Shown here: positions 419 to 31,644 of the stretch, piece by piece
Numbering within the stretch: position 1 is the first letter of the stretch
How the letters are laid out: each line of letters opens with the position of its first letter
DNA from: Chitinophaga pinensis
Lineage (GTDB): Bacteria; Bacteroidota; Bacteroidia; UKL13-3
DNA length: 64,000 nucleotides
NCBI GenBank assembly: GCA_945870425.1
Contig: CAMBSD010000002.1
Coordinates: 1 to 64,000, forward strand
Reading direction: 5' to 3'
Program-made: the position numbers and the translations under genes
Notes under the pieces: generated by a model
Told to the model about the DNA's origin: nothing
What the model saw: only the letters and a program-made list of their open reading frames with translations
The model's database searches: none

Positions 419-1000
419 CTAGTGCACCCTATCTCCTCTTTGGTCAAGGCTATAAATAATCTCTGCTTCGTATTCAAGCATATCGTCCCAACGCTTCATC
501 ACCACTTCCTCTTTTTCATATTCTTTCGCCAAATTTATAAAAGTGATGTAATGCCCCGCTTCGCTTACCATAAACTCATGGTAAAATTTCTTCAAGTCTT
601 CATCTTCAATATGCAAAGATAGAAGTCTGAATCGTTCGCAACTCCTGGCTTCTATCATCGCACATACCATGAGCCTGTCTATCATTTGATCTTGGTGGTT
701 GCCGCTTTTGCGTATCCATTTAAGCAGTTCATTTACATATTCATCTTTGCGTTTATGACCAAATTTATATCCTCGCTTTTCAAGTTCTTTTAATACTTTT
801 CTGAAATGCCCCCACTCTTCAGCTACTATGGCTGTAATCTCATTCACCAACTTTTCTTTTTCAGGATATTTAATAATAATTGATATGCCATTGCTTGCTG
901 CTTTTTGTTCGCAATACGCATGATCAACAAGTATGTCTTCTATTGATTTTTCTGCTATATTCACCCATACAGGGTCGGTAGCTAATTTTAATCCAAGCAT
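419..1000 (-). CDS. miaE: tRNA-(ms2)io6A hydroxylase MiaE
   Basis: 193 residues, full length for the family. MiaE is a non-heme di-iron enzyme that hydroxylates the isopentenyl side chain of (ms2)i6A at position 37 of tRNAs reading U-starting codons. The four-helix di-iron ligand pattern is visible: a first Glu near residue 21 (IEDIL), EEWGH near 61-65, EARSCERF near 117-124 and EAGHY near 148-152. The ATG at 1000 begins MLGLKLATDP, the usual N-terminus. It is monocistronic, next to a tRNA-Leu gene. Its substrate is made by MiaA, encoded at 30.7 kb in this window; miaB is not in the window. Confidence 0.9.
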   Translation of the reverse strand: MLGLKLATDPVWVNIAEKSIEDILVDHAYCEQKAASNGISIIIKYPEKEKLVNEITAIVAEEWGHFRKVLKELEKRGYKFGHKRKDEYVNELLKWIRKSGNHQDQMIDRLMVCAMIEARSCERFRLLSLHIEDEDLKKFYHEFMVSEAGHYITFINLAKEYEKEEVVMKRWDDMLEYEAEIIYSLDQRGDRVH

Positions 1001-27442: not shown

Positions 27443-28438
27443 ATGCCTGTAAATATATTAGCTATAGAATCGAGTTGTGACGACACTTCAGCCTCTGTTA
27501 TCAGTGATGGAAAAATACTATCCAATCTGGTAGCAGGACAAAAAGTGCATGAAGCCTATGGAGGCGTAGTGCCTGAGTTGGCAAGTCGTGCGCACCAAGC
27601 CAATATTTTGCCAGTAGTCGATATGGCCCTGAAGCAAGCAGGCATGACTCTTACAGATTTATCTGCCGTAGCTTTCACACAAAGCCCCGGATTGATAGGC
27701 TCATTGATGGTGGGTTGTTCATTTGCGAAATCATTAGCTCAATCTCTCAACATACCACTTATAGGCGTGCATCACATGCAAGCCCACGTATTGGCGCATT
27801 TTATTGACGAACCTAAGCCTGTCTTCCCTTTTCTGTGCCTAACCGTAAGTGGTGGGCATACTCAAATTGTTTTGATGCGCAACTACTTTGAGTTTGAGAT
27901 TATTGGCAAAACCCTTGATGATGCTGCTGGTGAAGCTTTTGACAAAGCCGCTAAAATACTAGAACTCCCCTACCCTGGTGGACCCTTGATAGACAAGTAT
28001 GCAAAAGAGGGAAACCAACATGCTTTTCAATTCGCCAAACCTGATATTCCTGAACTTAACTTCAGCTTTAGCGGTCTAAAAACCTCTTTCCTTTACTTTA
28101 TCCGTGAGCGTATAAAAACAAACCCTGATTTTATTAATGAAAATCTGGCAGATATCTGTGCGAGTATGCAAGAAGCCATTATCTATCATTTGATGAAAAA
28201 ATTAGTGAAAGCTTCTAAGCAAACAGGTATTAAAAAAATTGCCTTAGCTGGAGGTGTTTCGGCCAATACTGGTTTACGCAAAGCAATAGATATAGAAGGC
28301 CAAAAGCTAGGTTGGCAAACTTTTGTTCCTGCCTTTGAATATTGCACAGATAATGCTGCCATGATTGCTATCACGGCTCACTACAAATACCTAAATACCG
28401 AATTCAAAAGCCTTGATGTAAGCCCAAGCGCTAGGTAA
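27443..28438 (+). CDS. tsaD: tRNA N6-adenosine threonylcarbamoyltransferase TsaD
   Basis: 331 residues. TsaD transfers the threonylcarbamoyl group from TC-AMP to A37 of ANN-decoding tRNAs, with TsaB and TsaE. It starts ILAIESSCDDTSASVIS, has the iron-binding pair in HHMQAHVLAHF near residues 110-120, SGGHTQIVLM near 137-146, GEAFDKAAKILELPYPGG, FSFSGLKTSF and the C-terminal GGVSANTGLR and DNAAMIAI. ATG at 27443. It is monocistronic. Confidence 0.97.
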   Translation: MPVNILAIESSCDDTSASVISDGKILSNLVAGQKVHEAYGGVVPELASRAHQANILPVVDMALKQAGMTLTDLSAVAFTQSPGLIGSLMVGCSFAKSLAQSLNIPLIGVHHMQAHVLAHFIDEPKPVFPFLCLTVSGGHTQIVLMRNYFEFEIIGKTLDDAAGEAFDKAAKILELPYPGGPLIDKYAKEGNQHAFQFAKPDIPELNFSFSGLKTSFLYFIRERIKTNPDFINENLADICASMQEAIIYHLMKKLVKASKQTGIKKIALAGGVSANTGLRKAIDIEGQKLGWQTFVPAFEYCTDNAAMIAITAHYKYLNTEFKSLDVSPSAR

Positions 28439-30046: not shown

Positions 30047-30742
30047 TTGAACAAAGAAGAACAACTCATTTATAACACACTATCGGCCAAATTTCCTATG
30101 GTGCACATTCAAATAAATTTGCAAAAACATCAATTGAAAATTGAATTAAATGACCTAAAAATGAATTGTTGGAAAGACGAGTGGGAAGATAAGCCGGGCA
30201 TCATTTTATCTCGTATTAACTCCTTATTAGGTCAAAACAAAAGAGTTCATGGTAGATCCTGCGATATAAGATTATTAGATAAAAATACAGCTGAAACATT
30301 TTTGAATCGCCATCATGTTATGGGTTTTGCCAGTTCATATTATAAATTGGGTTTGTTTAAAAAGGATGAACTACTTGCTATAGCCACTTTTAGTAAAGGT
30401 CGAAAAATGAATAGGCTGCCCGAAGGGAAAAAGTCATTTGAATTGATTCGATTTTGCAATGCATCGGGTATTACCGTGGTGGGGGGATTGAGTAAACTGT
30501 TAAAACACTTTATAAAACTAACAGACGCAGGTGATATTATGACCTATATTGATAAGGACCAAAGCGAAGGAAAAGCCTTTATTAAACTGGGTTTTAAACT
30601 TCATTCAGAAAGTGAACCGATAGCCTTTAAGGTAGATAAAAATTCTCAAAAAAGAACGAATCAAAACATTACCAATCATGATATTGAAATGCAGGTGGTA
30701 AAAAACTCAGGTAATCTTAAACTTATATATACCGCATCATGA
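30047..30742 (+). CDS. GNAT/Mom-like protein of unknown function, coupled to miaA
   Basis: 231 residues from a TTG at 30047; the next Met is 17 codons later. I do not recognise a named family. The segment from about 84 to 185 (FLNRHHVMGFASSYYKLGLF, LLAIATFSKGRK, FELIRFCNASGITVVGGLSK, DIMTYIDKDQSEGKAFIKL, then GF) resembles the C-terminal domain of phage homing-endonuclease-like proteins, which I relate to the GNAT/Mom fold. This is from memory and pattern only. N-terminal ~80 residues are Lys-rich. Its TGA overlaps the miaA ATG (ATGA), so the pair is translationally coupled, suggesting but not proving a role in tRNA modification. Confidence 0.7.
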   Translation: MNKEEQLIYNTLSAKFPMVHIQINLQKHQLKIELNDLKMNCWKDEWEDKPGIILSRINSLLGQNKRVHGRSCDIRLLDKNTAETFLNRHHVMGFASSYYKLGLFKKDELLAIATFSKGRKMNRLPEGKKSFELIRFCNASGITVVGGLSKLLKHFIKLTDAGDIMTYIDKDQSEGKAFIKLGFKLHSESEPIAFKVDKNSQKRTNQNITNHDIEMQVVKNSGNLKLIYTAS

Positions 30743-31644
30743 AGAAGTATAATTGCATCATCATTACGGGAACTACAGCAAGTGGCAAAACCAAACTTGC
30801 TTGTCAGCTGGCTTATGAACTGAATGCTGAAATCATTGGTGTGGATTCGAGGCAGGTATATAGAGGCTTAAACATTGGTGCGGGAAAAGACTTAGATGAT
30901 TATGTAATTGAAGGAAAAGCTATCCCCTATCATTTAATTGACATTGCAGATATTGAAGAGAATTTCCACCTATATAAATTTATTGAGCATTTTATAGAGG
31001 CTTATTCAGACATTGTTTCAAGAAACAAAACGGTTATCATATGCGGTGGTACTGGACTTTACCTTGATGCAATATTAAAACAACATTATTATGCTGCAGT
31101 TCCTGTAGACAATGATTTAAGGTCAAAATTGATTAGTTTGTCGCATGATGAACTATTGAAAATATTTAATAGCTACCAAAATGAATTTAGCCAAATAGTT
31201 GATTCCCGGTCTAGTAAGCGACTTATTAGGGCTATTGAAATCTTCGAATTTCTAAAAAACAACAAGTTACCAAAAACCCATTTCCCAAATCTAAATCCAT
31301 TAATCTATTGCATTGAATTGGACAGAGATGAACGTAGAAAAAAAATTACTGATCGACTCAAAAATCGATTAGAAAATGGGATGATTGAAGAAGTAAATAA
31401 TTTAATAAAATTAGGCTATTCAGCCGACAGGTTGGAGTTCCTTGGTTTAGAGTATAAATATATAAGCTTCTACATTTTAGGCAAACTTAATTATGATGAA
31501 ATGATCAGCCAGTTAGAAACTGCCATCCATCAATTTGCCAAAAGGCAAATGACATGGTTTAGAAAAATGGAACGCGAAGGGCAAAAAATAAACTGGATAG
31601 CACATGACTATCCAATTCAAAATATTATTAAAAATTATAAATAA
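30739..31644 (+). CDS. miaA: tRNA dimethylallyltransferase MiaA
   Basis: 301 residues. MiaA transfers the dimethylallyl group to N6 of A37 in tRNAs reading U-starting codons, giving i6A, the precursor of MiaB and MiaE products. The P-loop is GTTASGKTK near residues 11-19, then VDSRQVYRGLNIGAGK near 35-50, PYHLIDIAD, CGGTGLYLDAIL near 100-111, and the C-terminal QFAKRQMTWFRK. The ATG at 30739 overlaps the preceding gene by 4 bp. The catalytic Asp and Thr of the P-loop region are intact. Confidence 0.96.
   Translation: MKKYNCIIITGTTASGKTKLACQLAYELNAEIIGVDSRQVYRGLNIGAGKDLDDYVIEGKAIPYHLIDIADIEENFHLYKFIEHFIEAYSDIVSRNKTVIICGGTGLYLDAILKQHYYAAVPVDNDLRSKLISLSHDELLKIFNSYQNEFSQIVDSRSSKRLIRAIEIFEFLKNNKLPKTHFPNLNPLIYCIELDRDERRKKITDRLKNRLENGMIEEVNNLIKLGYSADRLEFLGLEYKYISFYILGKLNYDEMISQLETAIHQFAKRQMTWFRKMEREGQKINWIAHDYPIQNIIKNYK

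Follow-up and report, generated by a model that had tools for sequence, protein, structure and literature searches.

The gene pair and its surroundings

The 64-kb stretch of DNA that was analysed here, referred to as the window, contains a gene for a GNAT/Mom-like protein that runs directly into a miaA gene, and the question raised by this locus is what a protein of that kind does beside a tRNA-modifying enzyme. An earlier note on this DNA had described an overlap of the 231-residue gene with miaA, and this overlap was indeed present: the TGA stop codon of the GNAT gene shares an ATGA with the ATG of the downstream gene (Table 1). The start of the GNAT gene was placed at a TTG, the first start codon available in frame. 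The note had further pointed to tsaD and miaE in the same window. Both genes were found, but they lie outside the gene pair, at distances of 1.6 kb and 29 kb, respectively, and tsaD is near-universal; a link of these genes to the pair was therefore set aside. Two leucine tRNA genes were also present in the window. Their tRNAs read codons starting with U, and such tRNAs are typical substrates of MiaA. The leucine tRNA gene with the anticodon CAA was located close to miaE.

Table 1. Positions of the gene pair, its parts and other relevant genes in the window
Feature	Positions	Strand	Basis or remark
GNAT/Mom-like protein gene	30047..30742	+	ORF, 231 aa, TTG start
N-terminal ~67 residues, putative short remnant of Hef nuclease domain	30047..30247	+	from longer relatives
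GNAT domain, residues 68-231	30248..30742	+	VIA-align model range and conservation
ATGA stop/start overlap	30739..30742	+	sequence; translational coupling probable
miaA2, divergent second tRNA dimethylallyltransferase gene, 301 aa	30739..31644	+	TIGR00174
tsaD	27443-28438	+	own sequence
miaE (PF06175)	437-991	-	profile match
Leucine tRNA gene, anticodon CAA	135-221	-	
Leucine tRNA gene, anticodon TAA	19700-19785	+	

The partner is a second, divergent miaA

The miaA of the window passed the family model TIGR00174 with 180.1 bits (cut-off 148.65), so that the GNAT gene is in fact coupled to a member of the miaA family, but not to the housekeeping copy, a distinction that the earlier note had missed. 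A canonical miaA with 276 bits to the same model was found elsewhere in the window genome (G000:C3:19375-20217), and genomes of the window's family carried two miaA genes each, a canonical one with about 200-280 bits and a divergent one with about 125-192 bits. In a tree of 98 MiaA proteins the canonical proteins and the divergent subfamily, here named MiaA2, formed two clades, each supported by 100/100, and every GNAT-adjacent miaA, including that of the window, fell into the MiaA2 clade. Bit scores and tree thus ruled out the housekeeping miaA as the partner of the GNAT gene.

MiaA2 retains the P-loop, D36, R206 and the KRQxT motif of the family, which makes it plausible that it is a working tRNA prenyltransferase. 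Diagnostic changes relative to canonical MiaA were the replacement of GTAKP by GTGKD, of an invariant methionine by arginine (R210) and of GYxE by GLEYK with a two-residue insertion, together with a conserved C-terminal RKMEKEG. We infer that recognition by MiaA2 is probably altered relative to the canonical enzyme.

Linkage, occurrence and dependence

The pairing with miaA, whose conservation across Bacteroidota the note had named as a check, was found to be conserved in several families of the phylum. Among 80 named Bacteroidota loci, 57 had the GNAT gene just upstream of miaA2 on the same strand, and this recurrence is more than would be expected by chance. At least eight different flanking arrangements were seen around the persisting pair, and about half of the adjacent pairs overlapped by 4-17 bases, with start codons assigned mechanically. 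Linked pairs were found in Sphingobacteriaceae (Parapedobacter, Pedobacter, Hufsiella, Olivibacter and Sphingobacterium), in Spirosomataceae (Dyadobacter), in Cyclobacteriaceae and in the window's family, including the closed genome UKL13-3.

Within the window's family (f1) the GNAT gene was present as a single copy in 56 of 58 genomes; outside this family it was found in two of 39 genomes of the same class, and a sample of 395 genomes across the phylum had it in seven. All seven of the latter were among the 55 genomes of that sample that carried MiaA2 (hypergeometric p 7e-7, a value that ignores phylogeny and shared ancestry). One genome of family f1, G012, was without GNAT at 99% completeness and was also without MiaA2, and in another, G040, MiaA2 was cut by the contig end exactly where the GNAT gene would sit. 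Ten loci in genera g6 and g7 and several others had the two genes unlinked; physical coupling of the pair is therefore not essential. Where GNAT was unlinked, MiaA2 was found elsewhere in 10 of 12 genomes checked, in one case as two fragments, while no MiaA2 was found in two small Prevotellaceae MAGs among these 12.

MiaA2 without GNAT was common (families f32, f46, f47, f51 and f69), which rules out that MiaA2 always needs GNAT. Since GNAT without MiaA2 hardly ever occurred, GNAT seems to depend on MiaA2, and not the reverse. In the MiaA2 tree the GNAT-bearing genomes fell into a single clade of 41 rows (96/91), apart from two stray rows, and the presence of GNAT required three changes on this tree, compared with 23 in shuffles. 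GNAT thus appears, from the tree, to have joined one existing MiaA2 lineage. The tandem arrangement of the GNAT gene and miaA2 suggests a modification step that has not been described, with tRNA as its most likely substrate.

Several further neighbours could be observed. In seven loci (L093, L095, L100, L116, L117, L170 and L175) from Parapedobacter, Sphingobacterium, Olivibacter and relatives, a conserved gene of 385-390 codons, resembling Gfo/Idh/MocA-type oxidoreductases by sequence, was located between GNAT and miaA2. A gene that reads like an RluE-type rRNA pseudouridine synthase often occurred near the pair (L070, L072, L074, L080, L082, L089, L099 and L101). Among the unlinked loci of genera g6 and g7 (L042-L050 and L075), the GNAT gene of g6 was positioned upstream of a transketolase-like gene of 281 codons in all members with that flank. 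A gene resembling deoxyhypusine synthase (PF01916, E 9e-93 in L113) preceded the GNAT gene in Prevotellaceae/Bacteroidales MAGs (L102, L103 and L113) and is the second neighbour with a relation to translation. The GNAT-less MiaA2 of families f51 and f69 (L172-L174 and L177-L189) was flanked by two conserved genes, one of about 490 codons, N-terminally cut in the loci, and one of about 440 codons that reads as glycosyltransferase-like.

Fold and relatives of the GNAT protein

An AlphaFold2 model of the GNAT protein, based on an alignment of 55 relatives, reached a pLDDT of 95.6 and a pTM of 0.89. Foldseek yielded 127 PDB matches at E<=0.001; the top match was Mom of phage Mu (8bv8, E 8.7e-7), with many GNATs ranked after it, and the best 50 of the 127 were nearly all GNATs. 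In VIA-align, the superposition on Mom covered 159 residues at 4.2 A (Z 13.1) and that on RimI 130 residues at 2.7 A (Z 13.5), the Z values for RimI and Naa50 being 13.3-13.5. The 231-residue protein is therefore predicted to have a GNAT superfamily fold, in agreement with the GNAT/Mom-like fold claimed earlier, while the modelled fold by itself does not separate the Mom line from the RimI line.

No relative of the GNAT protein came up when the PDB was searched by sequence. Its matches to phage families were strong: PHROG 3339 and 559, annotated as 'homing endonuclease' and 'HNH endonuclease', were matched in their C-terminal parts at E 2e-39 and 4e-35, respectively, and the PHROG family of Mom-like DNA modification proteins at E 5e-5. 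All 55 relatives matched both nuclease-fused families and 39 of the 55 matched the Mom-like one. Pfam Mom (PF25680) gave 15.1 bits with the window protein, which is under the gathering score of 27.1, and at E<=0.1 it matched 19 of the 55 relatives (best 1.3e-5). A tblastn search with the GNAT protein hit 354 phage records, many of them annotated as Hef-like homing endonucleases, at up to 11 places per genome; its closest sequence relatives were the C-terminal halves of these enzymes, and phage Hef-type homing endonucleases were also its best matches among viral structure models. The kinship with phage homing-endonuclease proteins noticed earlier was thus supported.

Fifteen residues were invariant across the 55 relatives (R70, F85, H90, L103, A113, F115, E132, G146, G147, M165, T166, Y167, D169, G182 and F183), and dN/dS of the GNAT gene was 0.15-0.42 in close pairs with enough changes; both indicate that the GNAT half is under purifying selection. 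The pyrophosphate loop for acyl-CoA was sought as Q/RxxGxG/A at the junction of beta4 and alpha3. In this region G146 and G147 were invariant at the start of the helix 147-159, and no conserved Q or R preceded them. The CoA loop thus appears degenerate, with two invariant glycines but no conserved R/Q, which counts against treating the activity as proven.

Mom, the closest characterised relative, is known to act on DNA, not on tRNA. The main rival to a common role with MiaA2 is that the GNAT protein still modifies DNA adenines as Mom does, for chromosome protection or as an epigenetic mark, and that its gene lies next to miaA2 owing to co-expression or a common history and not because both enzymes act on one substrate. 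The rank of Mu Mom in the structural search and the fusion of the GNAT domain to nucleases in phages are in its favour, as is the report that Mom domains of jumbo phages, described as moving an acyl group onto adenine N6, are fused to REase-fold nucleases, read there as DNA modification (PMC7824862). In the 80 named loci, however, no restriction or nuclease partner recurred beside the chromosomal genes; the sole recurring partner was a tRNA-modifying enzyme, whose co-occurrence persisted when the genes were unlinked. The residues also speak against it. The catalytic serine of Mu Mom, reported as S124 in 8bv8, is presumably S114 of the GenBank protein. In a weak hhalign alignment read with this presumed offset, its position was taken by V145, a variable residue. 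The catalytic serine of Mom is thus apparently not conserved in the GNAT protein, and the chemistry may differ from that of Mom. We consider DNA modification unlikely.

Still less probable is a protein acetyltransferase of the RimI/Naa50 kind, which would acetylate, for example, MiaA2 or a ribosomal protein and so regulate the neighbouring enzyme. RimI and Naa50 superimposed with Z values as high as that of Mom, and its dependence on MiaA2 would be compatible with a regulator of MiaA2; the high Z of RimI, however, belongs to the generic GNAT core, Foldseek ranked Mom first, and by sequence the protein belongs to the nucleic-acid-associated Hef/Mom lineage and not to the RimI families.

Requirement for MiaE and MiaB

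If GNAT and MiaA2 act on the same tRNAs, the site of acylation has to be considered. The earlier note had suggested, as a speculation, acylation or carbamoylation of an isopentenylated base, for which the nearest concrete form would be transfer of the acyl group to the MiaE-made hydroxyl on (ms2)io6A37. MiaE and MiaB were common in GNAT-positive genomes and both are present in the window genome. No fewer than eight GNAT-positive genomes that were at least 90% complete were, however, without MiaE (G004, G007, G015, G020, G029, G033, G041 and G089), and six were without MiaB above the TIGR01574 cut-off, namely the closed UKL13-3 genome (G022), G014, G024, G031, G036 and G050. A need for MiaE or MiaB was thus contradicted by complete or near-complete genomes that miss one or the other: neither enzyme is required by GNAT. 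Acylation of ms2io6A dependent on either was rejected as a general mechanism, and transfer to the hydroxyl is a very improbable explanation. Without a hydroxyl, i6A has no atom well suited to accept an acyl group; since MiaE is not required, acylation of the isopentenylated base is chemically problematic, and GNAT would have to act on a different atom or base. MiaA2 was present in spite of the missing MiaB in Bacteroidetes bacterium UKL13-3 (G022), G014, G024, G031 and G036, and in this sample the whole of genus g14 seems to be without MiaB.

Phage ancestry and loss of the nuclease

Many relatives of the GNAT protein had a longer N-terminus of about 105 residues. Residues 1-105 of the UKL13-3 relative (L089), modelled alone, gave a pLDDT of 92.1. 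The best structural match of this domain was the catalytic domain of I-Bth0305I (probability 0.99, Z 10.5 over 91 residues), followed by Vsr (Z 10.1), while matches ranked below Vsr had mostly Z 4-6, except two mitoribosomal chains at 8.4-8.7. The model thus predicts a Vsr-like (EDxHD) nuclease fold for the N-terminal domain of this relative, which is longer than the N-terminus of the window protein. From an alignment with phage Hef, the N-terminal ~67 residues of the window protein are probably a remnant of the same domain.

The nuclease residues E184, D186, E197, H204, H214 and K217 (numbering of CPX Hef) were present in 12-14 of 14 phage Hefs and nearly absent from 24 long chromosomal relatives. 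With its catalytic residues lost, the nuclease half of the chromosomal proteins is, as far as sequence tells, dead, a point that the earlier note had missed as well. An unrooted GNAT tree separated 13 phage Hefs as one clade from all chromosomal proteins (100/100), which is consistent with one domestication. The mobility of homing endonucleases, with several copies at scattered sites, was not seen in the chromosomal gene, which had one copy per genome and a fixed partner. A viral contig (L214) was considered as a possible phage copy; it carried MiaA2 29 bp downstream and was taken as chromosomal. That the gene is a functionless homing-endonuclease remnant landed beside miaA, as phage ancestry and the dead nuclease half might suggest, is hardly credible in view of its dN/dS, its invariant GNAT residues over 55 diverse sequences, its near-universal single copy in the window's family and an absence concordant with that of MiaA2.

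Proposed pathway

On balance we think it probable, by a narrow measure, that a domesticated, nuclease-dead GNAT of the Hef type and MiaA2 belong to a common pathway, in which GNAT would most likely acylate a base of the tRNAs that MiaA2 modifies. By sequence and model, the upstream gene derives from a phage Hef-type homing endonuclease, composed of an EDxHD/Vsr-like nuclease and a Mom-like GNAT domain. It became fixed in Bacteroidota chromosomes, losing the nuclease active site while the GNAT half was kept under purifying selection, and appears to have joined the pre-existing second MiaA lineage, MiaA2. MiaA2 would prenylate A37 at N6, and its tRNA set would differ from, or overlap, that of canonical MiaA. 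The anticodon loop of these tRNAs would then be modified by GNAT with acyl-CoA, at an adenine or at some other base, and the dead nuclease domain may have been left as a scaffold or nucleic-acid grip. What the computations show is the GNAT fold, the phage ancestry, the missing nuclease residues, the pairing, the one-way need for MiaA2 and the dispensability of MiaB and MiaE; substrate, acyl donor, modified position, order of steps, product and the role of the dead domain are proposed.

More tentatively, and with somewhat less than an even expectation, we suggest that the joint product of MiaA2 and the Hef-derived GNAT is a new hypermodified nucleoside, placed in the anticodon loop of Bacteroidota tRNAs. 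In that case the modifying part of a phage homing-endonuclease protein would have been recruited by the host as a tRNA-modifying enzyme, and its specificity would have shifted from DNA to RNA. Hef domains, Mom-like domains and the MiaA family are already known; a search of the open-access literature, with subscription papers outside its scope, yielded no report in which a Hef GNAT with a dead nuclease, encoded on the chromosome, is paired with a second MiaA. The pair has real potential for a new nucleoside. If the proposal is true, a further tRNA modification pathway, whose gene pair can be named, would be gained for a large phylum with many common inhabitants of gut and freshwater. The proposal would also trace how a selfish phage gene turned into an RNA-modifying enzyme of its host, and the second MiaA of many Bacteroidota, so far unexplained, would be assigned a role open to testing. 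Cultured hosts of GNAT exist in Parapedobacter, Pedobacter sp. Leaf194 and Dyadobacter.

Comparison with known systems

Canonical MiaA (TIGR00174) and MiaA2 have the family cut-off and the catalytic core (P-loop, D36, R206 and KRQxT) in common; MiaA2, however, forms a separate clade, and both copies coexist in one genome. With Mu Mom (PDB 8bv8; PF25680) the GNAT protein shares the predicted GNAT fold and the motifs E-L-x-R, (S/T)-aromatic-x-D and G..Y/F...(G/N)F, but it stays below the Pfam gathering score and its gene partner is a tRNA enzyme. I-Bth0305I, an EDxHD homing endonuclease, and Vsr have their fold in common with the modelled N-terminal domain of the UKL13-3 relative, which differs from them in being without the catalytic residues and in having a GNAT domain attached. 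The phage Hefs (e.g. the Hef74-like protein of Campylobacter phage CPX and the Hef-like protein of Vibrio phage VP-1; PHROG 3339/559) have a homologous GNAT-like C-terminal domain, about 35% identical, and the same nuclease-type N-terminal fold as the longer chromosomal forms. In contrast to the phage Hefs, the chromosomal proteins have lost the nuclease motifs (E)LD, IExNG, WH and YHxxK and are without the zinc-ribbon-like N-terminus; they are encoded in single copy, and their partner is fixed as MiaA2.
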